A program made the translations under genes and the position numbers. This document shows, in pieces, positions 4,527 through 58,674 of a stretch of 64,000 bases of DNA. The DNA is from an uncultured Dokdonia sp. (GTDB lineage: Bacteria; Bacteroidota; Bacteroidia; Flavobacteriales; Flavobacteriaceae): the NCBI GenBank assembly GCA_947503305.1, contig CANNDF010000004.1, forward strand, positions 124,001 to 188,000, given 5' to 3'. How positions within the stretch are numbered: the first letter of the stretch is position 1; every line of letters starts with the position of its first letter. The notes beneath the pieces are model-generated. The model did no database searches and was not told where the DNA came from. It saw only the letters and a program-made list of their open reading frames with translations.

Positions 4527-4540
4527 GCTTTCGCGAAAGC
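4527..4540. repeat. 14-bp palindrome GCTTTCGCGAAAGC, copy 1
   Basis: Perfect copy. Intergenic, in the 138-base gap between the divergent starts at 4469 and 4608. It is one of only two copies that lie outside coding sequence. Confidence 0.97.
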
Positions 4541-4570
4541 GTAATTCGCCACATTTTTGCTCCGTAATCA

Positions 4571-4600
4571 ATCAACATCAATCAACATCAATCAATCAAC
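4571..4600 (+). repeat. Tandem ATCAACATCA repeats in a 5' leader
   Basis: Two exact tandem copies of atcaacatca (4571-4580, 4581-4590) followed by a diverged unit (atcaatcaac), directly before the ATG of the TonB receptor gene at 4608. Short tandem repeats in a leader can change copy number by slippage. Confidence 0.75.
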
Positions 4601-4607
4601 AATCGTT

Positions 4608-6767: not shown

Positions 6768-6824
6768 GAATTAGACTTTAACAATAACAAAGTATATAAC
6801 ATCTATAGCGAAATTATATTTACT

Positions 6825-7220: not shown

Positions 7221-7386
7221 ATAGTAACCTTACTACTCTAATTTTAATTATAGTGCTCTTGGATAACAGATTTAGAATAAATATCTGCATTTTTACAATG
7301 CTATCAATTTTAGGAACTACTCTATAGAGATGTTAAAGATATCTGCAAAATGTAAGAAACTTGTATATTAGCAAAAAAAAGAAAAT

Positions 7387-7755: not shown

Positions 7756-7820
7756 CGTCTTTTTAAAATAGGACTAGTAAGGGTTCAGGTAATGATTACG
7801 ATACTTGTATAAATCATTTT

Positions 7821-8978
7821 TTGAGATTTTTAGTAACATATGTATGTCTATTGATGACCTACCCTTTGTTAGGACAAGGTCAATATATAGAACGAATTCC
7901 TGTACCTAATAGTAATGGAGAAACATATGCTATTTATATCCCAGAGGGATATAATGTACAGAAAAAAGGAGCTGTTTTATTTTCTTTTGCTCCCGATGGT
8001 ATAGGGAGAAATGGTATACGTCCATTTAAATCTGAGGCAGATTCAAGACAGATGATTGTAGTTTCCTCCAATGATAGTAAAAATGGTCCTTATGACCTTA
8101 ACTTGAGAATTGCACAACGTCTTTTTAATACTGTGTTATCTAAATATGCTATAGATGATAAACAAATATATCTTGCTGGCTTTTCTGGTGGATCTCGACT
8201 TGCAACAGCTATAGCATCGCTTTCATCAAATATTGCAGGGGTAATAGGTTGTGGGGCTGCTTTTTCTAATGTCTCTGATCACCTCCCTAAAGATCAGCCT
8301 TATACATGGGTAGGGATTATAGGTGATGCAGATTTTAATTATCAAGAAATGCTTGCGGCAAAAAATTACTTAACAGGACTTAATTTTACTCATGCATTAC
8401 AGATTTTTTCTGGAAGTCATCAGTGGCCTCCAGAAGAAGAAGTTGCAGCGGCATTCCGATTTATGGATTTAGAACGACATAAAAATGGAGAAGATATGCT
8501 TTCGCGAAAGCGTATAGAAAACCATTTTAATGAAGATTGTCATCGACTGTCCCAATTTTATGAAAAAAATGATCTGATCAAAACTGCATTTACATATTCT
8601 CAAATGATTAATGGATATGAACAAGTGCGTATGGTAGATTCTTTGCGTGTAGAGCATAATAATCTGATTACATCTGATGCCTATATGAAGCAATATGCCC
8701 AAACGGAGAAGGCATTGAATACAGAGTTGGCTATTAAACGACGGTTAGAATTACGTTTTCACTCAGATTATAGAGAACCCAATCGTGCAAACTGGAAGGC
8801 TTGGAAAAAAGAAATCAAAGCCTTAAAAGAACCATCAGATATTCCTGCAATCACCCAGATGCATAAACGATTATTGTTTTATGTATACATACTAGGGTAT
8901 AGTAGCCAGAATCCTAATGTAACCAAGACAACAACTTCTCAACAAGCATTTTGTAAACAATTAAGACAGCTACTTTAG
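7821..8978 (+). CDS. Secreted alpha/beta hydrolase (TTG start)
   Basis: A 385-residue secreted protein with an alpha/beta-hydrolase core in its first 210 residues: nucleophile in GFSGGSR (about residue 120), an acidic residue in GIIGDADFN and a His in SGSHQWP. This resembles the poly-/feruloyl-esterase and peptidase-like hydrolases. The remaining 170 residues are helical and unassigned. The start must be TTG 7821-7823: the next Met in frame leaves no room for a signal peptide, and MRFLVTYVCLLMTYPLLGQ is a clear one. Palindrome copy 2 lies in frame at residues 226-230, encoding LSRKR, at the junction between the hydrolase core and the helical tail. Confidence 0.75.
   Translation: MRFLVTYVCLLMTYPLLGQGQYIERIPVPNSNGETYAIYIPEGYNVQKKGAVLFSFAPDGIGRNGIRPFKSEADSRQMIVVSSNDSKNGPYDLNLRIAQRLFNTVLSKYAIDDKQIYLAGFSGGSRLATAIASLSSNIAGVIGCGAAFSNVSDHLPKDQPYTWVGIIGDADFNYQEMLAAKNYLTGLNFTHALQIFSGSHQWPPEEEVAAAFRFMDLERHKNGEDMLSRKRIENHFNEDCHRLSQFYEKNDLIKTAFTYSQMINGYEQVRMVDSLRVEHNNLITSDAYMKQYAQTEKALNTELAIKRRLELRFHSDYREPNRANWKAWKKEIKALKEPSDIPAITQMHKRLLFYVYILGYSSQNPNVTKTTTSQQAFCKQLRQLL
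8498..8511. repeat. 14-bp palindrome GCTTTCGCGAAAGC, copy 2
   Basis: Perfect copy inside the hydrolase gene 7821-8978. Read in frame as LSRKR, in a charged stretch after the hydrolase core. Confidence 0.97.
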
Positions 8979-8993
8979 TACACTATTGTATCC

Positions 8994-9164: not shown

Positions 9165-10811
9165 ATGAAATCAATCAAAAAACAAATCTTATTTCTTTTA
9201 CTACTCTTTCTTCTCTTTACTATAGGAGTAAATGGACAATCCTTAGAAAACCGTGTCGATGCAATTTTGGAGGCTGTATATGCTCCAGATACTCCTGGAG
9301 TTACGGCCCTTATTGCAAAAAATGGAAATGTATTATATCGTAAAGCATTTGGGAAATCAAATTTAGAACTGGATATAGATATGATCCCTGAAAATGTTTT
9401 TGAGATAGGATCTATTACCAAACAGTTTACAGCTGTTGCTATTTTAATGTTAGAAGAACAAGGGAATTTAAATACGAGTGATAAGCTTTCGAAGTATATT
9501 TCTGACTATCCTAAAGGAGATCAAGTAACCATTCATCATTTACTTAATCACACATCGGGTATTAAGAGTTATACAAGTATGCCAGACTTTAGGACGCAAG
9601 CCCGTACAGATATGGAGCCTATAACGCTTATTAATTTTTTTAAAAACGAACCTTATGATTTTGAGCCAGGCACAGAATATAAATACAATAACTCTGCTTA
9701 TATAGTTTTGGGGTACATTATTGAAGAGGTTTCTGGGATGCCATATGCTGACTTTATTGAACAAAAAATATTTACGCCTCTAGGGATGGAAACTGCTACG
9801 TATGGTAGCCATTCCAAATTGATAAAAAACCGTGCATCGGGTTATCAACCTTTACAAGGAGGATATAAAAATGCAGATTATCTCAGTATGACATTACCTT
9901 ATGCAGCTGGGTCTCTTATGGCAAGTGTCGATGATATGCTGGTATGGCAACAGGCTATTCATAACAATACACTTATAACTAAAGAAAGTAAGCAAAAAGC
10001 TTTTACTAGCGGGATTTTGATCAATGGGAAACCTATTCACTATGGATATGGATGGCGTATTGATGAAATACAAGGAGTACCCACTATAGAACATGGCGGG
10101 GGTATTTTTGGGTATACTACTTATGGACTTTATATACCTAGTGAAGATATATATGCAGTCGTATTGCATAATGCCAATGGAAGGACAAGCCCTACGGATG
10201 TTACCATAAAAATAGCAGCAGAAGCTCTTAATAAATCATACATTAACCCTCAAAAAGTTACACTCTCTGATGCGCAATTAAAAAAATGGACTGGCACTTA
10301 TACTTTTGAAGATGATGCAGTACGTCATGTTACCTACGAAAATGGACATTTATATAGCAAAAGAGAAGGGAGCGAGAAATTTAAGATTTTTCCTATTTCC
10401 GATAATGAATTTGGTTTTGAAAATTCTTTTTCAAGATACACTTTTGCGAAAGCAAAAGGAAAACGAACTGCAACCTTTAGCAGTCGTATTCAAAAGTCTA
10501 AAGGTGTAGAAAGTGATGCCAAAGCACCAAAGGCTAAGGTCGCTATCGAAGTAGCACCAGACATATTACGTCAGTACGAAGGCGTGTATGAATTGCAGCC
10601 AGGGTTTGCGGTTACCATATCGGTAAAAGAAGATAAGATATATGCTATGGCTACAGGACAGCCTGAATTTGAAATATTTCCGGAAGTAGAGGATACTTTT
10701 TTCTTAAAAGTAGTCCCTGCTAAGTTGGTATTTGGTCGTACTGATAACGGAGCTGTAATTGAAGTGACACTCCATCAAGGAGGGCAGCAATTAAAAGGAA
10801 TCAAAAAGTAA
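9165..10811 (+). CDS. Secreted serine hydrolase, beta-lactamase/class C esterase type
   Basis: A 548-residue protein with a signal peptide ending near GVNGQ (residue 25). The beta-lactamase fold (about 35-350) has the SxxK motif at SITK (Ser83, Lys86), YNN at 174-176 and an HGGG motif near residue 300, as in class C beta-lactamases, D-alanyl-D-alanine carboxypeptidases and EstB-type esterases. Residues about 365-548 contain two beta-rich repeats (each with W/Y-x-G-x-Y and KFKIFP or EFEIFP), a common C-terminal extension in this family. Without substrate data the activity cannot be assigned further. A degraded palindrome (ttttgcgaaagc) sits near residue 427. Confidence 0.88.
   Translation: MKSIKKQILFLLLLFLLFTIGVNGQSLENRVDAILEAVYAPDTPGVTALIAKNGNVLYRKAFGKSNLELDIDMIPENVFEIGSITKQFTAVAILMLEEQGNLNTSDKLSKYISDYPKGDQVTIHHLLNHTSGIKSYTSMPDFRTQARTDMEPITLINFFKNEPYDFEPGTEYKYNNSAYIVLGYIIEEVSGMPYADFIEQKIFTPLGMETATYGSHSKLIKNRASGYQPLQGGYKNADYLSMTLPYAAGSLMASVDDMLVWQQAIHNNTLITKESKQKAFTSGILINGKPIHYGYGWRIDEIQGVPTIEHGGGIFGYTTYGLYIPSEDIYAVVLHNANGRTSPTDVTIKIAAEALNKSYINPQKVTLSDAQLKKWTGTYTFEDDAVRHVTYENGHLYSKREGSEKFKIFPISDNEFGFENSFSRYTFAKAKGKRTATFSSRIQKSKGVESDAKAPKAKVAIEVAPDILRQYEGVYELQPGFAVTISVKEDKIYAMATGQPEFEIFPEVEDTFFLKVVPAKLVFGRTDNGAVIEVTLHQGGQQLKGIKK
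10441..10454. repeat. Degenerate palindrome-like site (cttttgcgaaagca)
   Basis: In the beta-lactamase-type gene the sequence cttttgcgaaagc differs from the palindrome core by one base (T for C), keeping the FAKA reading. It may be a decayed copy, or chance in a Lys/Ala-rich stretch. Confidence 0.35.
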
Positions 10812-15372: not shown

Positions 15373-18300
15373 TCAGGCCTTTTTTTCTATCCATTTTCGT
15401 GCATTTTCAAAAGCAGTAATCCATGGAGAAACCTGATCTTTTCTGTTAGAAGGATAATGTGCCCAATTCCATTGAAAAATAGAGCGTTCTATATGAGGCA
15501 TTGTTACGAGATGTCTTCCTGTTTTATCACATAACATTGCTGTATTATAATCTGAACCATTTGGGTTTGCAGGATAGCTATCATAACCATATTTGGCAAC
15601 AATAGAATAATGATCCTCCGGCATAGGAAGGGTAAACTTTCCTTCTCCATGACTTATCCATACTCCTAAGGTAGTCCCAGCAAGTCCAGATAGCATAATG
15701 CTATTGTTTTCTTGAATAGCTACACTTGTAAAATTACTCTCATGTTTATGAGAATCATTATATGTCATTTTAGAAAGTTGTTTATGGTCTGGATTGATCA
15801 GATCTAATTCTAAAAATAATTGACATCCATTACATATGCCCACAGATAAGGTATCTTCTCTTGCAAAAAAGTCTTTGATTACCTTGTTTGCTTTCTCATT
15901 GTATTTAATAGCACCTGCCCATCCTTTTGCAGATCCTAGTACATCACTATTTGAAAATCCTCCTACGGCTCCCAAAAACTGAATGTCCTCTAATGTTTCT
16001 CTTCCAGAAATTAAATCGGTCATATGGACATCTTTTACATCAAAACCTGCAAGGTACATGGCATTTGCCATTTCACGTTCAGAGTTACTCCCTTTCTCTC
16101 TAAGAATAGCCGCTTTTGGTCGTGGAGTACTAACATCTATAGATGGAAGTTTTCCATTAAAACCTTCTGGGAATACATACCGTAAGGGTTGTACCTTATA
16201 ATTGTCATATCTGGTTTTTGCTAGACTTCCTGCAGTTTGTTTACTATCCAATAAATATGAAGTTTTATACCATGTATCTCTTAATGAAGAGATTGTTAAT
16301 CCTAACTCCACGCCATGATTTTTAATTTCCAGTGTATTTGAAGTCGTAACGGTTCCTATCTTAGAATAAGACACTCCATGTGCTAAGAGAATATCTTCGA
16401 CAGATGCATCAGTTGCCTGAAAAACAATACCTGCATTTTCAGAAAAAAGAATTTTAATAAGATCTGCTTCTCCAAGTTCGGAAAGATCCATATGAGCTCC
16501 TAGGTTTGTGTCTGAAAAACACAACTCTAGTAATGTGGTAATAAGACCGCCACTTCCAACGTCATGTCCAGCAAGAATTAAATCTTTTTTGATAAGGAGT
16601 TGTAGGGTATTAAACGCTTTCGCGAAAGCGGAATCATCTACAATAGTAGGCGCATCACTTCCTATAGTATTACATATTTGTGCAAAACTAGACCCTCCTA
16701 ATTTATAGGAATCCTGTGACATATTTATATAATAAATAGCTCCTCCATCTTTTTTGAAAACAGGCTCTACTACCTTAGTAATATCATTACAGCTTGCTGC
16801 TGCCGAGATCACTACTGTCCCAGGTGCAATTACATCTCCATCTGGATATTTTTGTTTCATGGAAAGACTATCTTTCCCAGTAGGAACGTTAATTCCTAAG
16901 TTAATTGCAAAATCAGAAATTGCTTGTACAGCTTTGTATAATCGAGCGTCTTCTCCCTCATTTTTACATGGCCACATCCAGTTTGCAGAGAGGCTTACAG
17001 ATGTTAAATTATCTTTGAGGGGTGCCCATACAATATTTGTCAATGCTTCGGCAATACTATTTTTACTTCCAGCAACTGGGTCTATTAAACCACTTATAGG
17101 TGAATGTCCTATCGAAGTAGCTATACCTTCTGTACTTTTGTAATCCATTGCCATTACTCCTACATTGTTAAGAGGTAGTTGTAGAGGGCCTGCACATTGT
17201 TGTTTTGCTACTCGACCTCCTACACATCGATCTACTTTATTAGTAAGCCAGTCTTTACAAGCAACAGCTTCTAATTGAAGAACTTGATCTAGATATTCAT
17301 GAAAGTTTTCTAATTGATAAGATGGGTTCTTATAGATTCGTGACACCGTCTTATCTTGCATTACTGTTTTTGGAGAACTACCAAACATATCTTCTAAAGC
17401 AAGATTCATGGGGGACTCACCAGTAGATTTGCTTACAAAACAAAATCTATGGTCACCTGTAACATCTCCAACTTCATACATAGGAGATCGTTCACGATCT
17501 GCTATACGTTTAAGCGTGTCTATATGTTTTGGCCCTATAACAAGTCCCATACGTTCCTGAGACTCATTTCCTATAATTTCTTTTGCAGAAAGGGTTTGAT
17601 CACCTACTGGTAGTTTATCTAAATCTATATGACCTCCAGTATCTTCTACTAATTCTGATAAGCAATTCAAATGACCACCCGCACCATGATCGTGTATAGA
17701 TACAATCGGATTTGTATGGCTTTCTACCATACCTCGTATAGCGTTTGCGGCACGTTTTTGCATTTCAGGATTAGAACGTTGGATTGCATTTAATTCTATT
17801 CCAGAACTAAAAGCTCCAGTATCTGCAGAGGAGACTGCGGCTCCACCCATTCCTATACGATAATTTTCTCCTCCTAAAATGACAATCTTATCTCCTTCAT
17901 TTGGTACATCTTTTATTGCTTGATCTTTCTTGCCATATCCTATACCTCCAGCTTGCATGATTACTTTATCATACCCTAATCTGCGTCCTTCTTCCTGATG
18001 CTCAAAAGTAAGAACAGATCCTGCTATAAGTGGTTGCCCAAATTTATTTCCAAAATCAGAAGCCCCATTTGATGCTTTAATCAAAAGGTCAATAGGATTT
18101 TGATATAACCACTTACGTGCTTCCATATTATTTTCCCAAGGGCGTTCTTGTTCTAATCTAGAATAGGGAGTCATATATACTGCTGTTCCAGCAAGAGGTA
18201 AAGAACCTTTCCCTCCAGCAAGACGATCACGAATTTCACCACCAGAACCTGTGGCAGCACCATTAAATGGCTCTACAGTTGTTGGGAAATTATGTGTCTC

Positions 18301-20233: not shown

Positions 20234-21448
20234 TTAATTATTTTTTCGCGAAAGCAATGCCATATAAAATCCATCATACCCCGTTTTTGCAGGGCTTATA
20301 TTCTCGTCTTTATCTAGTGTAAAATGAGCCCCTTGTTCAGTAGCCAAGAATGCGGTGATTTGATCATTGTTTTCTTGTGGTAAAATAGAGCACGTTGCAT
20401 ATACCATTTTACCACCAGGCTTTACAATTTTACTATAGGATTCCAATAATTCTGCTTGTCGATCAATTACTTTTTGCACAAAATCTGGTTGTAATTTCCA
20501 TTTTAAATCTGGATTTCTTTTAATAGTACCAAGACCTGTACATGGTGCATCTATAAGCACACGATCTGCTTTACCATATAATTTTTTAAAAACCTTTGTG
20601 CTATTAATAACCCGAGGGTCAATATTATGAACCCCTGCACGTTTTGCACGTCTCTTAAGTTCTTTAAGCTTGCCTTCATAGATATCCATTGCAATGATTT
20701 GCCCTTTATTTTCCATAAGAGCTGCCAGATGTAAAGTTTTCCCTCCAGCACCTGCACACGCATCTACAACTCGCATTCCTGGTTGCACATCCAGAAAACG
20801 AGCAACACGTTGAGATGAAGCGTCTTGAACTTCAAAATGACCGCTTTTAAAGGCTTCTGTGGTAAAAACGTTTTTACGCTCTATGAGTTGTAAAGCATCT
20901 GGATATGTATCTATAATTTTGGTATCTATATCTTGATCTGCAAGGGTATTCCTAAGTTCTTTTGTTGTTGTTTTAAGTGTATTTGCCCTTAAAATTACTT
21001 CAGCTTGGGTATTAAGAGCTGTTAACTCTTTGTCCCATTGTTTTCCTAAAGCCTTTTCTCCCATGGTATCCATCCAATCTGGAATGGATTCTTTGATTTT
21101 CCTTATTTTTATAAGTTCATCAAATTTTCCTTTAATCCGTCGGGTTGGTACTGGTTCAATTTGTTTCCAATCTGGAATGGCAATACCTCTTAAGGTAGCC
21201 CATACAGCAAAAAGTCGAAATAAATTAGGTCTTGTATATGGGGCTTTAACTTCGGCGATTTCAGAATACAGCCGCTTCCATCTCACTATATCATATACAG
21301 TTTCGGCAATAAAGCCTCTGTCACGAGAACCCCAACGTTTATCATATTTAAGCACTTGCTTAAGCACTTTGTCAGCTTGCTTATCTTGATTAAAAATAAG
21401 ATCTAAAGCATCTACTGCAGCAAAAACAAGATTACGATGTAATTTCAT
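20234..21448 (-). CDS. RsmB/NOP2-type RNA (cytosine-5-)-methyltransferase
   Basis: A 404-residue RNA m5C methyltransferase. The N-terminal helical domain (about 1-140, with KVLKQVLKYDKRWGSRDRGF) resembles NusB/RsmB-type RNA-binding modules. The SAM domain has DACAGAGGKTLHLAAL (motif I), DAPCTGLGTIKRNPDL (catalytic-Cys motif IV) and YATCSILPQENN (motif VI catalytic Cys). These two cysteines are those used by the family. It probably modifies rRNA; 16S position 967 is the best-known target but is not proven here. Palindrome copy 4 ends the gene: the last residues are LLSRKNN. Confidence 0.93.
   Translation of the reverse strand: MKLHRNLVFAAVDALDLIFNQDKQADKVLKQVLKYDKRWGSRDRGFIAETVYDIVRWKRLYSEIAEVKAPYTRPNLFRLFAVWATLRGIAIPDWKQIEPVPTRRIKGKFDELIKIRKIKESIPDWMDTMGEKALGKQWDKELTALNTQAEVILRANTLKTTTKELRNTLADQDIDTKIIDTYPDALQLIERKNVFTTEAFKSGHFEVQDASSQRVARFLDVQPGMRVVDACAGAGGKTLHLAALMENKGQIIAMDIYEGKLKELKRRAKRAGVHNIDPRVINSTKVFKKLYGKADRVLIDAPCTGLGTIKRNPDLKWKLQPDFVQKVIDRQAELLESYSKIVKPGGKMVYATCSILPQENNDQITAFLATEQGAHFTLDKDENISPAKTGYDGFYMALLSRKNN
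20242..20255. repeat. Palindrome copy 4 (12 of 14 bases: tttttcgcgaaagc)
   Basis: Core tttcgcgaaa intact, outer left two bases are tt instead of gc. In frame as LSRK, four codons before the stop of the RNA methyltransferase. Confidence 0.85.
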
Positions 21449-24537: not shown

Positions 24538-24551
24538 GCTTTCGCGAAAGC
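24538..24551. repeat. 14-bp palindrome GCTTTCGCGAAAGC, copy 5
   Basis: Perfect copy. Intergenic, eight bases downstream of the phosphohexomutase stop codon (24560 side) and 66 bases beyond the small-RNA terminator. Confidence 0.97.
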
Positions 24552-34045: not shown

Positions 34046-35449
34046 CTACTGATTAAGATACGCTAAGAGTTCATCTTCAAAATTAGAACGATGTAAGTTT
34101 GCATGACTATTAAGAATCTTCCCTTTTTTATCAAGTACTATCGTCTTACTAATATCAGTAATGACAAGAGACCTTCTTGCATGAAACGGATCATCAAAAC
34201 GATATTCTTTAGAAGGATCAAATTTATGTTGTCTTAAATGTTGCGTCCATAGATCATTCTCATCGTTTATATTAATACCTATAAAATTAAATTCAGGGTA
34301 TTTTGATTGTAAGTCATGTGCTTTTTTGTGAGAATTCTCCATATGCATATGGTTGTTATAGGACCAAAAGTAAATAACTGTTGGTTTTTGTAACGTACTT
34401 GTGAGTGTAACCATACGTTGTCCTGCATCTACAAGCATAAGGTCTGGAATCTTATTACCAGCCTCCATTTTTTTATGAGTAATATAAAGCGCAGACATTT
34501 TATTTTTTACCTCCTCTGAGGTGATAGAACTCATTAATAATTTAAAAATATTATCTACATCCTCTTTATTGTTACTATTAGCGATAAAAATACGTCCAGT
34601 TCTGTATAACTTAGAGTCTTTAAGGCTTGTATTGGTGATGTTTTCTTTTATTGCTTCAATCTCATTATGATTATGTGTATACGATACGGTATTGTAAGAC
34701 GCTCTCGTTCCATATCTTTTGTATGCTTCATGATCTAGATATGCATTGATATAGCGTTGATATGTGTATAACTCTTGAAGGTTTGTATTGTTTAAGTTTA
34801 CGCTTTCGCGAAAGCTATAAAAATCATCAGGCAAATTTTCTATAAATGCAAGTTTATTCTTTCCATAGTGAGAGAAAGGATAGCTCTCTTTACGTTGGAA
34901 ATTATCATAGTTTACAGAAGCAAGCGCAATTTCTTCAAAAGCTGGAGAGACATCATGTTTTAGATTAAATTTTGTTAGAAACTTCTGCCGTTCACGATGC
35001 ATAGAGTCCAATAGTTTTTGAAATACCTGAGGCTCTTTTTGATAATGTTTTGTAAAACCATCGTTTTCAGATTCCCAATGCAAAAACATATCTATAAGAA
35101 AATTACTCCGTTCTGCGCCATTCCCTGAAAAGCTTAAAGATTCATCAAATTCAATAGTATTTACTCGAATCATAATACTATCTCCCTCCTCAATATGAAC
35201 AAGCTGACGTTCCGAGTGAATAAAACTATAAAGACCAGATTCAAAATCACTAAACTTACGAAAGAATCTATTGCGAGAGTCTAAATGAATGGTATCTATG
35301 ATTTGATCATTCTTTGATAGTAATACATATCCCCATTTTGGATTTATAATTTCTCCGCCTAAAAAAGTATTATTGGACTTTTTAGAATCTTCGTTTGTAC
35401 AGCTTATTAAGGATATAAAGCATACTAATATTGTAATGTAACTTTTCAT
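34046..35449 (-). CDS. TlpA/thioredoxin-like lipoprotein lacking active-site cysteines
   Basis: A 467-residue lipoprotein (lipobox LISC, Cys17). Its N-terminal part (about 25-120) resembles the DUF4369-type beta domain seen before thioredoxin modules in this group, then a helical middle (about 120-330), and a thioredoxin fold at the C-terminus (about 335-467) with PTVIYFWSYNNHMHM where the CxxC would be. No Cys occurs anywhere in this domain, so it cannot act as a disulfide redox enzyme. It may be a structural or binding relic. Palindrome copy 7 encodes FRES in the middle region. Close upstream of a 5' leader of more than 200 bases to the ABC-F gene. Confidence 0.82.
   Translation of the reverse strand: MKSYITILVCFISLISCTNEDSKKSNNTFLGGEIINPKWGYVLLSKNDQIIDTIHLDSRNRFFRKFSDFESGLYSFIHSERQLVHIEEGDSIMIRVNTIEFDESLSFSGNGAERSNFLIDMFLHWESENDGFTKHYQKEPQVFQKLLDSMHRERQKFLTKFNLKHDVSPAFEEIALASVNYDNFQRKESYPFSHYGKNKLAFIENLPDDFYSFRESVNLNNTNLQELYTYQRYINAYLDHEAYKRYGTRASYNTVSYTHNHNEIEAIKENITNTSLKDSKLYRTGRIFIANSNNKEDVDNIFKLLMSSITSEEVKNKMSALYITHKKMEAGNKIPDLMLVDAGQRMVTLTSTLQKPTVIYFWSYNNHMHMENSHKKAHDLQSKYPEFNFIGININDENDLWTQHLRQHKFDPSKEYRFDDPFHARRSLVITDISKTIVLDKKGKILNSHANLHRSNFEDELLAYLNQ
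34802..34815. repeat. 14-bp palindrome GCTTTCGCGAAAGC, copy 7
   Basis: Perfect copy within the thioredoxin-like lipoprotein gene; in frame as SFRES. Confidence 0.97.
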
Positions 35450-37825: not shown

Positions 37826-38548
37826 TTATTGAGTTTTGTCATATTTACTATTCCAAATTGCCGTATTAAAATTTTTTCCAAGTGCAAAGCCGTAAAATAA
37901 AACGACAGCTGCAATAGACTTAAACATAAAAAAGAATACCATAATATCCTGAGAAAAGTCTTGTTTTTTTGTAAACAGTCCATCAGGTACTAATAAGGTC
38001 GCAATGAAGCTTGCAAATAGTATTCCGACGATAAGATTTTCAAATGATTTATAGGGCCACATTAGCCATTTACGTAATGGGTGGAGATCATTACCCCATT
38101 TATGAATAAGATAAAAATAACCATTCCCCATAGGAGCAAATAACAATGGGTCATCAGTTTTTTCAAGAACAAACATTTTTGAAGGCGCTATAATTTTAAA
38201 GCCATCTAGTACAATCTGGTGTTTGTTTTCTATATATTTTATCTCACTTAGCGCCGATTGAGGGTATTTTCCTTTAAAATACTTAGAGTCTAGAAATCTC
38301 AGTCGGTAGTTAATACAGATTTTTTTGATTTGTGATAATGTAAAAATTCGATCTTGATCTATAATACTCAAATCAAAGGTATTGACAATCTCATCTTGTT
38401 TTCCTTTTAGTTTTTGGAGGAGTTCGCTTTCGCGAAAGCGATCTTCTTCCAGTACCCGTTGTACCTCTGCAAGAATATTTACATCTTGAAAATCTTTTTC
38501 TTTTTCTCGTATAAGTTTATCGTGAATATCAGTTTTAGAAAAGAGCAT
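37826..38548 (-). CDS. Conserved hypothetical membrane protein
   Basis: A 240-residue protein: a soluble, charged N-terminal part (about 1-165) and two transmembrane helices at the C-terminus (about 172-190 and 203-224). The N-terminal third is helical, with palindrome copy 8 encoding RFRES (residues 37-41), and a middle segment with IKYIENKHQIVLDGFKI. No family is recognised. Co-directional with the DUF2007 gene downstream by eight bases, so likely an operon of two membrane-associated proteins. Confidence 0.75.
   Translation of the reverse strand: MLFSKTDIHDKLIREKEKDFQDVNILAEVQRVLEEDRFRESELLQKLKGKQDEIVNTFDLSIIDQDRIFTLSQIKKICINYRLRFLDSKYFKGKYPQSALSEIKYIENKHQIVLDGFKIIAPSKMFVLEKTDDPLLFAPMGNGYFYLIHKWGNDLHPLRKWLMWPYKSFENLIVGILFASFIATLLVPDGLFTKKQDFSQDIMVFFFMFKSIAAVVLFYGFALGKNFNTAIWNSKYDKTQ
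38426..38439. repeat. 14-bp palindrome GCTTTCGCGAAAGC, copy 8
   Basis: Perfect copy; with flanking symmetric c/g a 16-bp palindrome. In frame as RFRES in the hypothetical membrane protein. Confidence 0.97.
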
Positions 38549-45713: not shown

Positions 45714-47816
45714 TTATGAAATAAAACTCCAGATATTCTTAAATTTTACCATTTGTGCGTATACAAACCGAATAATTTGGTTTTCCGCTTTCGCGAAAGC
45801 GGGATCATCTTTTACAATTCCCCATGCATAGCTTCTAGCTACTTTTAGAATATCATTATCACGTATGATATCACCTATTTTTAGATTAAGAACACCACTT
45901 TGTTGTGTCCCCATGATATCACCTGGGCCTCTTAACTTTAGATCTACTTCGGCAATTTCAAAACCGTCATTGGTACGAGTCATGGTTTCTAATCGGGTTT
46001 TTGAATCATTAGAAAGTTTAAAACTAGTCATCAAAATACAGTAACTCTGTGATGCACCACGCCCTACACGTCCTCGTAGTTGATGTAGTTGACTTAACCC
46101 AAAACGTTCTGCGCTTTCTATGATCATTACAGAGGCATTGGGAACGTTTACACCTACTTCTATCACTGTAGTGGCTACCATGATTTGTGTCTCGCCTTTT
46201 ATAAAACGTTGCATTTCATAATCTTTGTCTGCAGGTTTCATCTTCCCATGAACGATAGAAATCTGATAATCGGGTAGAGGAAATTCTCTGGAAATACTCT
46301 CGTATCCATCCATCAAGTCTTTATAGTCCATCGCTTCTGATTCTTGGATAAGAGGGTATACAATATAGACTTGCCTGCCTTTCTTAATTTCGTCTCGGAT
46401 AAAGGCAAAAACTTTAAGTCTATTTGCATCATATCTATGCACAGTTTTTATGGATTTTCTTCCTGGAGGTAACTCATCAATAATAGACACATCTAGGTCT
46501 CCGTAAACTGTCATCGCAAGCGTGCGTGGAATAGGAGTAGCTGTCATTACAAGTACGTGAGGTGGATACTCATTTTTATGCCATAATTTACTACGTTGTT
46601 TTACTCCAAAACGATGTTGTTCATCAATAACAGCAAGCCCTAAATTTTTAAATTTTACCTTATCTTCAAGTAATGCATGTGTCCCGATAAGAATGTTTAA
46701 TTCACCATTTTCTAGTTTTTCATGAATTATTTTTCTACTTGAAGTTTTAGTTGATCCTGTAAGTAATGAAATACTGGTATTTAATGGTTTGCATAATTCA
46801 ATTAATCCATTATAGTGTTGTACTGACAAAATTTCAGTTGGCGCCATTAAGCATGCTTGAAAACCGTTGTCAAGTGCTATAAACATTGATAATAAGGCTA
46901 CAATAGTCTTTCCAGATCCTACATCTCCTTGTAAAAGTCTGCTCATTTGCGCATTTGTACCCAAATCATGGCGTATTTCTTTAAGAACTCTCTTTTGCGC
47001 TCCTGTCAATTCAAAGGGTAAATGATTCTTATAAAAATCATTAAATAATGGGCCGACTTTTTCAAAAGGATAGCCTTTTATTTTTGTTTTATGTGTTCTG
47101 TTTTTAAAGGCAAGTTGTAGTTGAATATAGAAGAATTCTTCAAATTTTAATCGGTATTGTGCCTTAGCTAAATCGACTTGAGATTTCGGAAAATGAATGT
47201 TCAGTAATGCCATGTTTTTTGGCATCAATTTTAAGTTTTCTAGAATAGGTTTTGAAAGGCTTTCATGCAAGTGGTTTTTTGCTTCCAAAAACAAGGTTTG
47301 CATAAGGGTATTTATTACCTTATTTGTGATTCCTTTATTGCTTAATTTTTCAGTACTTGGATAAATGGGCTGCATCGCACTGCGTAAACTTTTTTCATGC
47401 TCAGGTAGTAATTCCATTTCTGGATGTGGCATAGAAAATTTTCCATTGTAATAATTGGTTTTTCCAAAGATGACATATGGTGTATTGAGTTTAATACTTT
47501 CTTTAATCCATTTATGACCTCTAAACCAGACAAGCTCCATACTCCCCTCATCATCTTTAAATGTAGCTACAAGCCGTTTTCCTTTTCCTTCTATCATTTT
47601 AAGGCTTGTTACTTTTCCTATTACTTGGACATCGGCATTATTACGTTCTAACTCAGAGATGCTATAATAACGTGTTCTGTCTATATATCGATTTGGAAAG
47701 AGATGTATTAAATCTTGATACGTATGAATCCCAAGTTCAGCTCGTAATAGATCTGCCCGATTTGGTCCGACGCCTTTTAAGTAGTCTATAGGGGTTTGTA
47801 GGAAATTAGGATTCAT
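45714..47816 (-). CDS. recG: ATP-dependent DNA helicase RecG
   Basis: A 700-residue RecG, a superfamily 2 helicase that remodels stalled replication forks. The wedge/OB domain is at the N-terminus (GVGPNRADLLRAELG, FPNRYIDRT), then GDVGSGKTIVALLSM (Walker A), VIDEQHRFG (DEQH box), MTATPIPRTLAMT and QLRGRVGRGASQSYC. The longer frame begins with TTG at 47852; ATG at 47814-47816 (MNPNFLQTPIDYLKG) fits the family start. Palindrome copy 9 is near the C-terminus (PAFAKAEN). Confidence 0.96.
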   Translation of the reverse strand: MNPNFLQTPIDYLKGVGPNRADLLRAELGIHTYQDLIHLFPNRYIDRTRYYSISELERNNADVQVIGKVTSLKMIEGKGKRLVATFKDDEGSMELVWFRGHKWIKESIKLNTPYVIFGKTNYYNGKFSMPHPEMELLPEHEKSLRSAMQPIYPSTEKLSNKGITNKVINTLMQTLFLEAKNHLHESLSKPILENLKLMPKNMALLNIHFPKSQVDLAKAQYRLKFEEFFYIQLQLAFKNRTHKTKIKGYPFEKVGPLFNDFYKNHLPFELTGAQKRVLKEIRHDLGTNAQMSRLLQGDVGSGKTIVALLSMFIALDNGFQACLMAPTEILSVQHYNGLIELCKPLNTSISLLTGSTKTSSRKIIHEKLENGELNILIGTHALLEDKVKFKNLGLAVIDEQHRFGVKQRSKLWHKNEYPPHVLVMTATPIPRTLAMTVYGDLDVSIIDELPPGRKSIKTVHRYDANRLKVFAFIRDEIKKGRQVYIVYPLIQESEAMDYKDLMDGYESISREFPLPDYQISIVHGKMKPADKDYEMQRFIKGETQIMVATTVIEVGVNVPNASVMIIESAERFGLSQLHQLRGRVGRGASQSYCILMTSFKLSNDSKTRLETMTRTNDGFEIAEVDLKLRGPGDIMGTQQSGVLNLKIGDIIRDNDILKVARSYAWGIVKDDPAFAKAENQIIRFVYAQMVKFKNIWSFIS
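45787..45800. repeat. 14-bp palindrome GCTTTCGCGAAAGC, copy 9
   Basis: Perfect copy inside recG; in frame as AFAKA in the C-terminal region. Confidence 0.97.
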
Positions 47817-47889
47817 TGTCACGAATTTAAATGAATTTCCTTTCTTCGGCAATGCTCAATATAAACTTTGAAAAATCTTTTTTAAGTCT

Positions 47890-49023: not shown

Positions 49024-49211
49024 AAGGGATGTATATTAAGTTTTTTAGTTAATTATAAAGGCATTCTATTTTGAAAATAGACAGTAATTACCCTATTTAT
49101 ATACGGTGACAAGTAAATATACATTATTAAAATACGATTCTTTATATAGGATACTCATAGTAGGTACTTTTGGTATAAAAAATGCTATTAGATAATTGTA
49201 TTTTTAGGCCT

Positions 49212-51308
49212 ATGAAACACACTTTTTTATTTCTTTTTTTAATTTTTGCTTTCGCGAAAGCATATACTCAAGAAATATCTCCCCAAACTCAGAAGGTAGA
49301 TATTATAAACATTACTGCACTGGTACGTCCTGATTTTAGAGAAGCATCAATTAATGGAGATCTAGAAGTGACATTTACTGCATTAGAAGATGTCAAAGAA
49401 GTTCTACTAGATGCTAAAAAAATGACGATTGAAAACCTATCAAAAGAGTTTGTTATTAAGGCTTTAGAAGATCATATATCCATTCAAGGCCCTTTTGATA
49501 AAGGGCAGACGTATACCCGTCAATTTACCTATAGGGTAGTTCCTAAGCAGGCATTATACTTTGTAGACGCGATGGGAACACCTCAAGTATGGACGCAAGG
49601 GCAAGGAAAGTATACCTCGTATTGGTTACCGAGTATAGATGATATGAACGATAAAATTGAATTTGACCTTACAATAGAAGCTCCTAAAGAAATGACGGTA
49701 ATTGCGAGCGGATATTCAAAAAGTGTTCAAGAACTTGAGGAATATAATGTATGGCAATTTGATATGGTACAGCCTATGTCTAGCTATTTAGTGGCATTAG
49801 TCATAGGAACCTATGATAAAAAAATAGAAACTAGTACTTCGGGAATCCCTCTGGAATATTACTATTATCCTAAGGATACTTTAAAAGTTGAGCCTACCTA
49901 TCGATACTCAAAACAAATTTTTGATTTTCTGGAAAAAGAAATAGGTGTAGCATATCCTTGGCAAAACTATAAGCAAGTACCTGTAAAAGACTTTCTGTAT
50001 GCAGGAATGGAAAATACGTCACTCACTATTTTTTCTGATAGTTTTGTAGTAGACAGTATAGGATTTACAGATCGTAATTATGTAAATGTAAATGCGCATG
50101 AGCTTGCGCATCAATGGTTTGGCGATCTAGTAACAGAGACAAAAAGTGAACATCACTGGTTACATGAAGGCTTTGCAACCTATTATGCTTTGCTTGCCGA
50201 GCGCGAAATTTTTGGGGATGATTATTTTTATTATAAGCTGTATGAATCTGCAGAGCAACTACGTGAATTAAGTGATACTGGAAAAGGTCAGAAACTCGTG
50301 GCTTCTGGGGGTAGTAGTTTAACATATTATCAAAAAGGAGCTTGGGCATTACATATACTTAGAGAAAAAATAGGTTCAGCGGTTTTTGCAAAGGCCGTAA
50401 GAAACTATCTTACTACCTATGCTTTTAAAAATGTAACTACTACAGATTTTATAACTGAGGTCGAAGTGATTTCTGGCCAAGATTTAGAAGACTATAAAAA
50501 AGCATGGTTATATCAAAGTGCTTTTCAGGCTACAGATGCGCTGAAATCTCTTAAAAAGTCTCCTTTTATGCGATCCTATTTTGAATTACAGTCATTACGC
50601 CCTCAAGCATTAAAAAATAAGGTAAAACAGTTAGGAGGCATTCTTTCCTTATCAAATGATTATTTAGGACAAGAGGGTGTTTATCAATTGCTAGGAGAAA
50701 ACGCATCACTTAGTAATTCATTATATGAGATTGCATTTTCAAATAAAAATGTATACACACGTCAGGCTATAGCAACATCTATGGAGGCAATTCCTAATGT
50801 ATTGTTACCTCGTTTTAAAAGCTTATTAGTAGATAAAAGTTATGTGACTCGAGAGCAATCATTTTTAAAACTTTGGCTTCAGTATCGAAGTTCTAATGCA
50901 TTACAGTTACAGCACACGCTACTGGACCGCTATGATTCTCAATTTGGTTTTTCTGATGGTAATATTAGAGTTTTATGGTTGACTTTAAGCTTAGCAACTC
51001 AAAACTATAAACCAGACACTGCAAATAATCGTTTTAAAGAACTTGCATCGTATACAGAACCTTCACAACCATTTCAATTGCGTGAGAATGCATTTCAATA
51101 CCTATTTCAGATACAATCTTTTGATGAGGTAAGTCTTAAAAATTTGGTTGAAGCATGTGTACATCACACATGGCGCTTTCGCGAAAGCGCACGTAAGCTT
51201 CTCAACGAACTGTATAAAGATGAAGGATATCGTATCATGCTTAACAATCTAGAAACTAAATTATCTGAAAAAGAAATTGCTTATATAGCGCGTATTAAAA
51301 AGCAGTAG
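49212..51308 (+). CDS. Secreted M1 family aminopeptidase
   Basis: A 698-residue metalloaminopeptidase. The signal peptide MKHTFLFLFLIFAFAKAYTQ has palindrome copy 10 encoding its end (AFAKA), with the AKA site before the cleavage point. Then an N-terminal beta domain, YAGMENTSLTIF (GAMEN-type motif) and HELAHQWFG with HExxH-x18-E (the third ligand is in LHEGFA). The C-terminal helical part (about 440-690) has palindrome copy 11 in WRFRESARK. It removes N-terminal residues from peptides. The longer frame from 49182 (MLLDNCIFRP) is rejected because it would place charges before the signal peptide. Confidence 0.94.
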   Translation: MKHTFLFLFLIFAFAKAYTQEISPQTQKVDIINITALVRPDFREASINGDLEVTFTALEDVKEVLLDAKKMTIENLSKEFVIKALEDHISIQGPFDKGQTYTRQFTYRVVPKQALYFVDAMGTPQVWTQGQGKYTSYWLPSIDDMNDKIEFDLTIEAPKEMTVIASGYSKSVQELEEYNVWQFDMVQPMSSYLVALVIGTYDKKIETSTSGIPLEYYYYPKDTLKVEPTYRYSKQIFDFLEKEIGVAYPWQNYKQVPVKDFLYAGMENTSLTIFSDSFVVDSIGFTDRNYVNVNAHELAHQWFGDLVTETKSEHHWLHEGFATYYALLAEREIFGDDYFYYKLYESAEQLRELSDTGKGQKLVASGGSSLTYYQKGAWALHILREKIGSAVFAKAVRNYLTTYAFKNVTTTDFITEVEVISGQDLEDYKKAWLYQSAFQATDALKSLKKSPFMRSYFELQSLRPQALKNKVKQLGGILSLSNDYLGQEGVYQLLGENASLSNSLYEIAFSNKNVYTRQAIATSMEAIPNVLLPRFKSLLVDKSYVTREQSFLKLWLQYRSSNALQLQHTLLDRYDSQFGFSDGNIRVLWLTLSLATQNYKPDTANNRFKELASYTEPSQPFQLRENAFQYLFQIQSFDEVSLKNLVEACVHHTWRFRESARKLLNELYKDEGYRIMLNNLETKLSEKEIAYIARIKKQ
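49248..49261. repeat. 14-bp palindrome GCTTTCGCGAAAGC, copy 10
   Basis: Perfect copy at the end of the aminopeptidase signal peptide; in frame as FAFAKAYTQ. The residues 'AKA' form an A-x-A signal-peptidase site. Confidence 0.97.
51175..51188. repeat. 14-bp palindrome GCTTTCGCGAAAGC, copy 11
   Basis: Perfect copy, extended symmetrically to 18 bp (gcgctttcgcgaaagcgc, 51173-51190), the longest in the window. In frame as RFRESA in the aminopeptidase. Confidence 0.97.
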
Positions 51309-53611: not shown

Positions 53612-54889
53612 TTAGCTTCCTAAATAATCCTGTGTCATTTGCACAAAGGTTTTAACACCCAGTAAAAGTCCGCTTTCATCAATATGAAAATCAGGAGTGT
53701 GATGAGGTGCTGCGGTCTCATCTCCTGGTGTTTTACCTCCTAAGAAAAAATACAATCCAGGGACTTCTTTGGCAAAAAAGGAAAAATCTTCGGCACCAGT
53801 AATGGCTTTAATAACTTTTACATTTTCTTTACCCGCTGCTTTTTCTAACGAAGGAAGCATTTGTGAGGTAAGATCTGGGTCGTTATATGTGATCGGGTAT
53901 CCTTTGGCAATACTGATAGTGGCTTCTGCTCTATACGCTGTAGCAATAGCGGGAACCATTTCTTTCATACGACGATTGATTAATTCTTGCATATCATAGT
54001 CTAATGTGCGTAAGGTTCCTACAATTTGTGCACTTTCAGGAATAATATTACTTCGTACGCCTGCATTTATTTTTCCTATAGAAAGTACAGCAGCTTCTTG
54101 TGTGAGTGGTGACTCTCTGGATATTATAGTTTGTAAACCGTCTATGATTTTTACAGAGGCCATGATAGGATCTATACTTGTCCATGGGGTAGAGCCATGA
54201 CTTTGTTTTCCTTGTACATCGATCTCAAAACTTTGAGATGCTGCCATAATCCCACCTGGTTTGTAGGCAATCGTATTAACATCTTGACCTGCACCTATAT
54301 GTAACCCAAAAATGGCATCTACATCAGGGTTTTTAAGAACATTCTCTTTGACCATAAGTTCGGCACCGCCTTCTTCACCTGGAGGTGCTCCTTCTTCGGC
54401 TGGTTGAAAAATAAATTTGACAGTACCTGCAAAGTCATTGTTTTTTGCCAATACTTCTGCAACGCCCATTAGAATGGCGATATGTGTATCATGACCACAC
54501 GCATGCATAACGGGTACTTCTGATCCCCGATATTCTCCTTTGGCGGTAGATTTAAATGGGAGATCTACACGTTCTTCTACTGGAAGTGCATCTATATCTG
54601 CTCTTAAGGCGAGTACTTTCCCTTTTTGTTTTCCTTCTAGAATTCCTACCACACCAGTTTTTGCAATACCTGTCTGTACTGTAAGTCCCAATGATTTTAA
54701 GTGAGTAGATATTTTTTCGGCAGTTTTAAACTCCCGATTTCCGAGTTCAGGATTTTGATGAAAATCACGACGCCATTCAATTACTTTGGACTCTATGGCG
54801 TTGATATCTTTATCTAGGGGTGTTTGTGCTTTCGCGAAAGCGGTTACAACACAAATTGTAGCGAGTACGAATACTTTGATTTGTTTCAT
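53612..54889 (-). CDS. Secreted M20 amidohydrolase, copy A
   Basis: A 425-residue amidohydrolase (hippuricase/IAA-amino-acid-hydrolase-like). Metal ligands: HACGHDTH (Cys/His/Asp/His block), PAEEGAPPGEEGGAE (Glu/Glu block) and HTPDFH at the C-terminus. The lid domain contains GKQSHGSTPW. The signal peptide ends with palindrome copy 12 (TAFAKAQT). It is closely related to the enzyme at 56817-58106, from which it differs in the signal peptide and many surface residues. Substrate: N-acyl amino acids or dipeptides; unproved. Confidence 0.93.
   Translation of the reverse strand: MKQIKVFVLATICVVTAFAKAQTPLDKDINAIESKVIEWRRDFHQNPELGNREFKTAEKISTHLKSLGLTVQTGIAKTGVVGILEGKQKGKVLALRADIDALPVEERVDLPFKSTAKGEYRGSEVPVMHACGHDTHIAILMGVAEVLAKNNDFAGTVKFIFQPAEEGAPPGEEGGAELMVKENVLKNPDVDAIFGLHIGAGQDVNTIAYKPGGIMAASQSFEIDVQGKQSHGSTPWTSIDPIMASVKIIDGLQTIISRESPLTQEAAVLSIGKINAGVRSNIIPESAQIVGTLRTLDYDMQELINRRMKEMVPAIATAYRAEATISIAKGYPITYNDPDLTSQMLPSLEKAAGKENVKVIKAITGAEDFSFFAKEVPGLYFFLGGKTPGDETAAPHHTPDFHIDESGLLLGVKTFVQMTQDYLGS
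54828..54841. repeat. 14-bp palindrome GCTTTCGCGAAAGC, copy 12
   Basis: Perfect copy at the end of the M20 copy-A signal peptide, in frame as TAFAKAQT. The paralogous M20 copy B lacks it at the same place (SAFTQT). Confidence 0.97.
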
Positions 54890-54989
54890 ATACTTATTAA
54901 GTCAATAGGGTTTGGTTTATATTCTCACAATATTGAGTTCAAGATAATGAATCTAACCCTAATCTTTTTTATGGCTTATATAGAGCGCA

Positions 54990-55994: not shown

Positions 55995-56013
55995 TAGTAT
56001 ATAAAGTCAAAAA

Positions 56014-56775: not shown

Positions 56776-56816
56776 AGTAATAATAACGATTTGTACAAGA
56801 TTGGTAGTATAATTAT

Positions 56817-58106
56817 TTACTTTCCATTCAAGTAGTCTATTGACATCTGGCTTAAAGCTTTAACACCTAATTGGAAGCCAGATTCGTCTATAAAAAAATC
56901 AGGCGTGTGATGTGGGAAAGCTTCTGTATTTCCAGGTGTCATTCCTCCTAGGAAGAAATAAAATCCTGGTACTTTTTCTTGAAAAAACGAAAAATCTTCC
57001 CCTCCTGTAACGGCTTTTTGTAATTGAACGTTTTCGTCTCCACCTACGGTTCTAAGGGTAGGTAACATCTGATCTGTAAGTGCTAGATCATTGTATGTAA
57101 CTATAGTCATATTTTGCCAATCGATGCTTGCTTCTCCTCCATAAGCTTTTGCAATATCACGTGCCATTTCATCCATACGACGTATAATTTTCTCACGCAT
57201 ATCTGGATCTAATGTTCGTACCGTTCCTATCATCTCTGCACTTTCTGGGATTATATTGAATCGTAGCCCTGATGTGATTTTTCCTATTGTAATTACTGCC
57301 GCTTCATCAGTAAGCTTACTCTCGCGAGATATAATACTCTGAAAACCGTCTATAATTTTTGCAGAGATATAAATGGGATCTACGCCACTCCACGGCTGAC
57401 TACCATGTGTTTGCTTTCCTTTTACGTTTACAACAAAACGTTCTGTAGCGGCCATTGTTCCTCCTGGTTTATAACGGATAGTGTTTACCGGAGTTCCCGA
57501 ATTTATATGCAATCCAAAAATGGCATCTACCTTTGGATTTTCCAATACTCCTTCTTTTACCATTAATTTTGCTCCCCCTTCTTCTCCTGGTGGTGGACCT
57601 TCTTCTGAGGGTTGGAAAATAAATTTTACAGTACCATTAATTTTGTCTTTATTTTTTGCCAATACTTCTGCTACACCCATAAGAATTGCAGTATGAGTAT
57701 CGTGACCACAGGCATGCATTACACCTGTTTCTGCACCTAAGAAAGTGGTTTTTACTTCAGATTTAAAAGCAAGGTCATTACGTTCTGTTACAGGTAGGGC
57801 ATCTATATCTGCCCGAAGCGCTACTACTTTCCCAGCTGTATTGCCTTTGAGAAGTCCAACGACTCCCGTTTTTGCAACACCTGTTTGTACTTCTATCCCT
57901 AATGATTCTAAATGTTTGGCTATTTTTTCGGCGGTTTTAAACTCTCGATTTCCTAATTCTGGATTTTGATGAAAGTCACGACGCCATTCAATCACTTTGT
58001 CTTTTACAGCTTCGATATCTTTATCAAAACTGGTTTGTGTAAAAGCACTCCCAGCAAGTAATAAAAAAATTGGAACCAGTATTTTTTGTAAGCTTAGATT
58101 TTTCAT
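56817..58106 (-). CDS. Secreted M20 amidohydrolase, copy B
   Basis: A 429-residue paralogue of 53612-54889 with the same catalytic pieces: HACGHDTH, PSEEGPPPGEEGGAK and HTPDFF (the last His of copy A's HTPDFH is Phe). GKQTHGSQPW is in the lid. The start is ATG 58104-58106 (MKNLSLQKILV); the longer frame begins with TTG at 58142 and overlaps the DsrE gene. The signal peptide ends in AGSAFTQ, without the palindrome. The two enzymes are aligned over their full length and most likely arose by local duplication with genes inserted between. Confidence 0.92.
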   Translation of the reverse strand: MKNLSLQKILVPIFLLLAGSAFTQTSFDKDIEAVKDKVIEWRRDFHQNPELGNREFKTAEKIAKHLESLGIEVQTGVAKTGVVGLLKGNTAGKVVALRADIDALPVTERNDLAFKSEVKTTFLGAETGVMHACGHDTHTAILMGVAEVLAKNKDKINGTVKFIFQPSEEGPPPGEEGGAKLMVKEGVLENPKVDAIFGLHINSGTPVNTIRYKPGGTMAATERFVVNVKGKQTHGSQPWSGVDPIYISAKIIDGFQSIISRESKLTDEAAVITIGKITSGLRFNIIPESAEMIGTVRTLDPDMREKIIRRMDEMARDIAKAYGGEASIDWQNMTIVTYNDLALTDQMLPTLRTVGGDENVQLQKAVTGGEDFSFFQEKVPGFYFFLGGMTPGNTEAFPHHTPDFFIDESGFQLGVKALSQMSIDYLNGK

Positions 58107-58131
58107 AGTATATAATCTATATGTAAATAGT

Positions 58132-58674
58132 TTAAAATGCAATTAATTGATATCCATCTTGTTGCGACTGGATTAAAATAGTCATTGCCGAGAGAGCCGT
58201 TTGTGTTAATGAAAGGCGTCTTTCTTCTGAGAGGTTACGTGCCCCTGCTGTTTGACCACATAGAATTATAGCTACGCCTGCTTTATCTATAGCTTCGAGC
58301 ATTTCTATGTTTGGATTATCTACGCCAAATTTTTCTTTATATGCATCATTTTTTAAAAGGCCATACGATGCTTGTCCATGTATCGCCATACGGACCTGTA
58401 GATTTTCTACGGGCACTCCTGCGTTTTCATGCATATTCAAAAAACGGGCTATGGTTTCTATATATTTATTACGCTGGCTAGGGTCTTCGGGTGCTTTGGC
58501 AACATCAAAAACGACTTTAAAAACCCTGTCGGTATCTGTACTAAAATCTGGATTTGGAACTTCATAGGTTTTCCCAAATTCAGGAATCATATTCCCAACG
58601 ACTGCTTTAGGTTGTTGGGTATACGCTTTCGCGAAAGCGAATACTATCAAAATCATCGCTATCAATTTCTTCAT
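58132..58674 (-). CDS. Secreted DsrE-family protein
   Basis: A 180-residue exported protein of the DsrE/DsrF sulfur-relay fold. The signal peptide MKKLIAMILIVFAFAKAYTQ has palindrome copy 13 encoding AFAKA before the cleavage site. Conserved elements are RVFKVVFDVAKAPEDPSQRN, VRMAIHGQASYGLL, the Cys in VAIILCGQTAGARNL and LSAMTILIQSQQDGYQLI. Periplasmic DsrE proteins occur widely; function is not established. The longer frame to 58785 is rejected because it buries the signal peptide. The gene ends 26 bases before the M20 copy-B ATG. Confidence 0.88.
   Translation of the reverse strand: MKKLIAMILIVFAFAKAYTQQPKAVVGNMIPEFGKTYEVPNPDFSTDTDRVFKVVFDVAKAPEDPSQRNKYIETIARFLNMHENAGVPVENLQVRMAIHGQASYGLLKNDAYKEKFGVDNPNIEMLEAIDKAGVAIILCGQTAGARNLSEERRLSLTQTALSAMTILIQSQQDGYQLIAF
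58625..58638. repeat. 14-bp palindrome GCTTTCGCGAAAGC, copy 13
   Basis: Perfect copy (16 bp with flanking c/g) at the end of the DsrE signal peptide; in frame as FAFAKAYTQ, the same nine residues as in the aminopeptidase although codons differ at several positions. Confidence 0.97.

Follow-up and report, generated by a model that had tools for sequence, protein, structure and literature searches.

The palindrome GCTTTCGCGAAAGC, 14 bp long and repeated throughout a 64,000-nucleotide stretch of an uncultured Dokdonia genome (contig CANNDF010000004.1, positions 124,001 to 188,000; hereafter the window), is in each of its copies the core of a larger site, which spans about 52 bp and has two-fold symmetry. 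This site is an element of the DNA itself, with marks of selection, a constraint on spacing and a symmetric footprint of that size, and it sits in genes as well as between them, irrespective of the coding strand. It is quite possible, and we propose it tentatively, that the site is an evenly spaced landmark for a sequence-specific protein acting at the scale of the chromosome. It is chiefly in cyanobacteria, in the form of HIP1 (GCGATCGC), that highly iterated palindromes have been described, and no function has been agreed upon for them; the present case, from the Bacteroidota, is evenly spaced, has a large symmetric footprint and stops at a sharp phyletic boundary, which makes the question of their function testable. 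Four things are new here: the regular spacing, the strand asymmetry of a site of some 52 bp, the orthologous positions shared across genera and the sites on mobile elements. No earlier report of a GCTTTCGCGAAAGC site was found in the literature (open-licence PMC papers, supplements being outside this scope), and the accessible portions of two motif surveys (PMC5217627, PMC4060949) nowhere mention Dokdonia or Flavobacter.

Copy number and phyletic range

The source genome (G000; 4.26 Mb in 57 contigs) holds 570 copies of GCTTTCGCGAAAGC and none of the reversed-pattern control. All 18 Dokdonia genomes are positive, with 369 to 905 copies each, and three genomes from two other genera contain 408 to 664. 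Within the family, 61 of 299 genomes have at least one copy: five have 408 to 857 (G000, G206, G010, G242 and G190), three have 16 to 19, and 53 have 1 to 9, the intermediate counts, which may reflect either remnants or mobile DNA, being those of G076, G287 (genus g77) and G051 (g52). Across the phylum, any copy at all was seen in 16 of 296 genomes, and beyond G000 none has more than four; the family and phylum samples overlap in some genomes. Among 80 named recG loci, the four from Dokdonia carry 1, 5, 6 and 7 copies and the other 76 carry none. These four are also the best matches to G000 among the 80, and its RecG is 93% identical to that of an uncultured Dokdonia, which identifies G000 as a member of that genus. 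The phyletic boundary is a sharp one, in fact, with every Dokdonia genome positive and none or few copies in most relatives. A dialect form of the palindrome in other genera was also considered and rejected, as none was present in those 76 loci, some of them only 3–6 kb long, and no other G+C-bearing palindrome of at least 12 bp ever exceeded two copies in a recG locus, a few loci spanning only 3–6 kb. Copies with one mismatch number 98 against 570 perfect ones in G000, 74 against 664 in G242 and 128 against 408 in G190, which puts the perfect share among copies with at most one mismatch at 85, 90 and 76%, respectively. In the RecG tree and in a four-protein tree, the latter obtained by a quick method, genus g191 adjoins Dokdonia and genus g11 stands apart on a long branch; a single clade of the motif-rich genera was not rejected with the four-protein tree (approximately unbiased test, p-AU 0.44).

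The site, its conservation and its spacing

Moving outward from the core on either side, position +1 is G in 68% of cases in G000, 89% in G206 and 92% in G242, A predominates at position +3 or +4, and G is scarce from +4 to about +19 and comes up again at +20. Between +4 and +18, G accounts for 6.9, 6.8 and 5.5% of bases in these three genomes, compared to 15.3, 14.9 and 13.8% between +21 and +35 (65, 105 and 88 sites; the arms of G190, discussed below, were counted at 49 sites). The base at +2 behaves as a dialect, leaning to T in Dokdonia and to G in g11. As G goes down in the arms C goes up, and A gains more than T; A+T, however, lies just 2–4 points above the genome, so that the bias is mainly one of strand asymmetry, and arms meant for AT-rich melting or bending are ruled out. 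Left and right arms are not correlated, hence there is no longer hairpin stem, and a role as a transcription terminator was likewise discarded, there being no enrichment between convergent genes. The arms are alike upstream and downstream of the core within genes of both coding orientations, and between genes. Around mismatched copies, arm G amounts to 9.2% with one mismatch (42 copies), 12.8% with two (39) and 16.2% with three (72). The arms of orthologues lacking the site were not significantly less G-poor than those of their occupied counterparts (4.51 vs 3.53 G, p = 0.08, 19 sites).

The copies are apparently kept by selection. The first-pass annotation, which had likened the palindrome to HIP1, asked whether the excess would withstand codon-preserving shuffling and whether close relatives would share the sites. 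It withstood the former: in sampled coding DNA, 20 synonymous shuffles per genome gave means of 0.40, 0.65, 0.45 and 0.35 copies against 41, 58, 43 and 41 observed in G000, G206, G242 and G190. In the same order, the motif encodes 18 of 25, 34 of 41, 21 of 23 and 20 of 21 AFAKA peptides, and therefore the DNA dictates the protein sequence. Several genic copies (in L323, L326 and L312, and at 54828 in the window) lie near starts of open reading frames (ORFs) that by eye resemble signal peptides, where AFAKA would suit a signal peptidase cleavage site. Sites between ORFs, as delimited by simple longest-ORF calls, are 24 of 65, 31 of 90, 44 of 88 and 7 of 49 (14–50%), vs 9–13% of the DNA.

The question about relatives was also answered in the affirmative, since all 18 Dokdonia genomes carry the palindrome, and positions were conserved in the comparisons made. 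In eight overlapping pairwise comparisons of alignable DNA, with genic and intergenic sites pooled, 17 sites were shared and 27 were not; in the same alignments, 0.8–3.5% of control 14-mers were fully identical, and the flanks of the shared sites had a mean identity of 51–74%. Where the counterpart had no site, the core aligned without gaps in 24 of 27 cases and with gaps in three, and copies therefore arise by point mutation; an inserted repeat, or the self-copying one that the first-pass annotation had entertained, was rejected on this ground. Cores aligned to site-less relatives differ at 5–8 positions in 65 of 75 cases (ungapped alignments only). As judged from these alignments, sites arise through point substitution and recur at orthologous positions across genera. 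Those shared between genera include sites in purL, recG, a glycosyltransferase gene and a MiaB/RimO-like gene, the latter name being a reading of the translation and the g11 glycosyltransferase alignment being gapped beside the core. The large excess, the placement in and between genes and the conserved positions all support the comparison with highly iterated palindromes.

Outside islands there is about one site per 4–7 kb, and the intervals are too regular for random placement. The coefficient of variation (CV) of the gaps is 0.48 over the initial 326 kb of G000 contig C1 (50 gaps; random 0.98 ± 0.13), a run picked for its absence of long gaps, the low value holding for such chosen island-poor runs. 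It is 0.66 in G206 (89 gaps), 0.45 in G242 (87), 0.69 in G190 (80), 0.74 in a fifth genome, G299 (99), and 0.42 in the window (11), with random placement giving 0.93–0.99; controls matched for genic and intergenic location upheld the even spacing in G000, G206 and G242. Gaps shorter than 3 kb make up 5% among 100 G000 sites, vs 29% expected. When the G190 chromosome was sampled at 20 regular points, 20 kb at a time, every sample contained one to five sites, and no trend was evident on inspection of this one genome at this coarse sampling; sites of the Noc type, for reference, are unevenly distributed and depleted at the terminus. Relative to G000 and G242, G190 (g191) has arms that are weaker, spacing that is less regular and a larger number of one-mismatch copies (128 of 536), and is possibly a lineage in which the system is relaxing.

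Readings of the site and candidate readers

If the site is a chromosome-scale landmark, a single dedicated sequence-specific protein, probably a symmetric dimer, would read it as DNA, and cells would benefit if no stretch of more than a few kilobases lacked a site. The likeliest role would be in the organisation or maintenance of the chromosome, as a regularly repeated anchoring or boundary point, and not in gene regulation, nucleoid organisation having been among the options of the first-pass annotation; mobile elements and prophages residing in motif-rich hosts would face the same pressure. The gene for such a reader would be expected to occur in Dokdonia, g191 and g11 alike while being absent or altered outside them, and its product could be sought with the 52-bp site as bait.

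Several results, however, weigh against the landmark. Among the families tested one at a time, no reader protein was identified. The sites of Noc and ParB (parS) are 14–16 bp palindromes of the TTTC/GAAA type bound by dimers, but they number in the tens, not hundreds, and their half-site register is unlike that of GCTTTCGCGAAAGC. Here, moreover, ParB_N had a single match per genome in the seven motif-rich genomes tested and in seven of eight others, the eighth, G101, having three; as none of the motif-rich seven has a further ParB-family gene, a Noc-like ParB paralogue was rejected. Known nucleoid-site proteins accept degenerate sites, whereas most copies in G000 and G242 are perfect (the 85 and 90% given above). 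The avoidance of G over some 16 positions on one strand is hard to explain with an ordinary duplex-binding dimer and suits reading in single-stranded DNA at least equally well; this asymmetry is the strongest hint against such a dimer, and it keeps the single-strand readings alive. In G190 the arms are weakly G-poor (17.1 vs 22.1%). The CV for the full list of 100 G000 sites is 1.16, because of a few long site-free stretches. Even spacing, furthermore, has also been reported for DNA uptake sequences (PMC1939737).

Such a report bears on the possibility that the site is a DNA exchange mark under molecular drive, akin to the uptake sequences of Neisseria and Haemophilus, where preferential uptake or recombination of site-bearing DNA would lead sites to accumulate to about one per transferred fragment. 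We regard this as rather unlikely. The DNA uptake sequences (DUS) of Neisseria and the uptake signal sequences (USS) of Pasteurellaceae do resemble our site in their many near-perfect, over-represented and evenly spaced copies, found in genes and between them, in their combination of core and flank, and in having dialects, as the +2 base does here (PMC1939737 and PMC12616744), and ComEC was present in 16 of 16 genomes. ComEC was equally present, however, in all seven motif-poor genomes among these. Known uptake sequences are also non-palindromic (PMC1939737) and tied to type IV pilins, and arms of the Pasteurellaceae type are AT-rich, without strand asymmetry (PMC12616744). As for the pilus machinery, PF00437 (PilB/PilT-type ATPase) matched over cut-off in only G000, G242 and the motif-poor G017 of 20 genomes; G206, G010 and G190, three of the five motif-rich genomes tested, had no such match (pilins themselves were not searched), and the match of G000 is in a site-poor stretch, between the sites at 602 and 630 kb of C1. 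With this distribution, uptake through type IV pili was rejected as a general explanation, and the uptake mark that the first-pass annotation had listed finds no support in its known, pilus-dependent form. Chi, the signal read by RecBCD and AddAB, shares with the present site a density of about one per 4–5 kb, the requirement for an exact sequence and strand-specific reading, and differs from it in being short, non-palindromic and oriented. A site read in single-stranded DNA, either as a Chi-like end-resection signal or as a hairpin-type replication-restart signal, is in our opinion distinctly unlikely, and no Chi of 14-bp palindromic form is known. What speaks for it is that the 3' half of the core, GCGAAAGC, is a known DNA mini-hairpin that would leave the G-poor 3' arm free for reading (d(GCGAAAGC) is among the solved single-strand hairpins listed in PMC5430850, PDB 2K71; for Chi itself see PMC7644769), that C replaces G and A replaces T in the arms, a strand asymmetry invisible to duplex flexibility, and that sites occur on conjugative elements and phage contigs. 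The core hairpin was also favoured by real over swapped arms (0.714 vs 0.655, n = 243, Wilcoxon p = 0.04), but the difference is slight, and pairing within the arms was not reduced. An AddB-type nuclease domain was found in 16 of 16 genomes; AddB, however, is only 48–51% identical within Dokdonia and without a clear signature, whereas the site is invariant. In AddB pieces of 572–776 aa, two columns were specific to motif-rich genomes, vs 0–2 in 15 control splits, and for want of a clear motif-linked signature in these partial proteins AddB was dismissed as the obvious cognate reader. The pieces from G000 and five other Dokdonia (L350, L353–L357), for which RecG is 87–93% identical, mark AddB, by its lower identity, as a fast-evolving repair protein.

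A doubtful but conceivable alternative joins elements of the above, in that the site would be a new genome-wide mark with a palindromic core and arms read single-stranded, present every few kilobases on chromosomes and equally on prophages and conjugative elements, each strand of which would be checked by a dedicated resection, restart or exchange enzyme. Very little probability, on the other hand, attaches to the site being methylated by an orphan DNA methyltransferase, an idea put forward for HIP1, which overlaps orphan methylase targets in cyanobacteria (PMC4390886, PMC6604393). HIP1, an 8-bp sequence found every 1131 bp in Synechocystis and under selection (PMC6604393), is like the present palindrome in being short and G+C-bearing, in its large excess over composition and codons, with conserved positions within and between ORFs here, and in being thought selected with its function unsettled. 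The present site differs in its 14-bp core, its strand-asymmetric arms and total length of about 52 bp, its even 4–7 kb spacing and its phylum, and also because no shared C5 or N4/N6 methylase was found. PF00145 (C5) had no match in G000, G305, G314, G242 and G190, five of nine motif-rich genomes, and PF01555 (N4/N6) passed its cut-off in only G010, G190 and G101 of 16 genomes and in none of seven of the nine motif-rich ones, including all six Dokdonia tested. These gaps rule out either family as the shared partner, and the methylase target put forward by the first-pass annotation is not supported for them, other methylase families not having been searched; a methylase alone, in addition, would leave arms and spacing unexplained. 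That the site is a neutral by-product, whether of biased mutation or repair or of an element that copies itself or was inserted, is scarcely credible: copy number by itself would fit, but the gap-free counterparts, the even spacing, the persistence of the core while its flanks diverge and the excess of perfect copies over those with one or two mismatches do not.

Mobile elements and the copies of the window

In genera poor in the motif, a copy is often the mark of a conjugative element with metal resistance. We took 20 stretches around copies from 13 motif-poor genomes, and those from eight of them (G101, G078, G087, G201, G215, G111, G012 and G172) match one another across genera at 72–97% identity, those from the other five not doing so. 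Scanning the proteins of L312, L313, L320, L323 and L326 turned up RND efflux pumps, metal P-type ATPases, tyrosine recombinases, TraG and DUF4138, and a family of site-bearing, conjugative-type elements with metal-efflux cargo (L309–L322 and L326) spans eight genomes of different genera. At 31 sites in L309–L322, many of them mutually homologous, the arms are present, with 10% G vs 17% further out. The +2 base of these elements is G in 50%, nearer to genus g11 than to Dokdonia, hinting at a g11-like donor. No plasmid match for a site-bearing element was obtained by megablast. The site could serve as a tracer, as such conjugative elements may have passed through motif-rich hosts. Among the matches listed for viral contigs, 12 of 85 copies have arms with at most 10% G, and most are without G-poor arms. 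Three of the stretches with such low-G copies were scanned (L143, L152 and L160), and among their genes are those for a head protease, a phage transposase and an integrase, together with tail genes. The IMG/VR phage contigs L143, L160 and L130/L147/L152 have two or three copies each, mostly with G-poor arms, those of L160 being three in number and spaced 3.1–3.6 kb; no copy was seen in the 35.5 kb of phage P12024S. In G000, the site-free stretch of C1 at about 326–389 kb (L025–L028) contains a type IV secretion system coupling protein, a tyrosine recombinase and a DncV-like nucleotidyltransferase, as would be expected of an acquired island. The nucleotidyltransferase is possibly part of a cyclic oligonucleotide-based antiphage signalling system (CBASS), and the stretch also encodes a large DUF6443 protein, RHS-type by reading.

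In the window itself, the 12 perfect copies listed in the first-pass annotation are all exactly where it had placed them, and its 12/14 copy at 20242..20255 is present as well; the list was nevertheless incomplete, as it had overlooked a second 12/14 copy at 10440..10453, either a decayed site or a chance match. There are no one-mismatch copies, and the resulting 14 matches with at most two mismatches compare to a mean of 0.12 and a largest value of 2 in 100 dinucleotide shuffles. The extended palindromes described earlier (16 bp in four copies, 18 bp in one) proved to be off on remeasurement, which gave 14 bp for five copies, 16 bp for three, 18 bp for three and 22 bp for one.

The copy at 4527..4540 lies between ORFs and, with its arms, covers about 4508–4559, and the one with the 22-bp palindrome, 24538..24551, is also between ORFs. 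The copy at 8498..8511 is within ORF 7821-8978 (+), and that at 16616..16629 (16-bp palindrome) is within purL (encoding the formylglycinamide ribonucleotide amidotransferase, FGAR-AT; 15373-19038, −), where the same place is occupied in a g11 genome. Within a glycosyltransferase ORF (29044-29985, −), the copy at 29814..29827 has the same position in G190 and one mismatch in G206, and the copy at 34802..34815, in a thioredoxin-like ORF (34046-35449, −), is found in two further Dokdonia loci (L231, L232), with two mismatches in G206. The three 18-bp palindromes are at 38426..38439, within ORF 37826-38548 (−) and shared with L229 and G206; at 45787..45800, near the C-terminal end of recG (45714-47852, −), shared with L229, L230 and G190 and replaced without gaps in G206, L231 and L232; and at 51175..51188, near the end of an M1 peptidase ORF (49182-51308, +), shared with G206 and L231 and with arms less G-poor than at other window sites (4 and 3 G). 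The same M1 peptidase ORF has another copy near its start, at 49248..49261 (16-bp palindrome), which is present in L229 too. The copy at 54828..54841 is near the start of an M20 peptidase ORF (53612-54889, −), and the last, 58625..58638 (16-bp palindrome), is within a DsrE-like ORF (58132-58785, −) and provides a worked example of the whole site of about 52 bp, which here extends over 58606..58657, the core with 19 bp per side, and is free of G from +4 to +19 outward on both sides.

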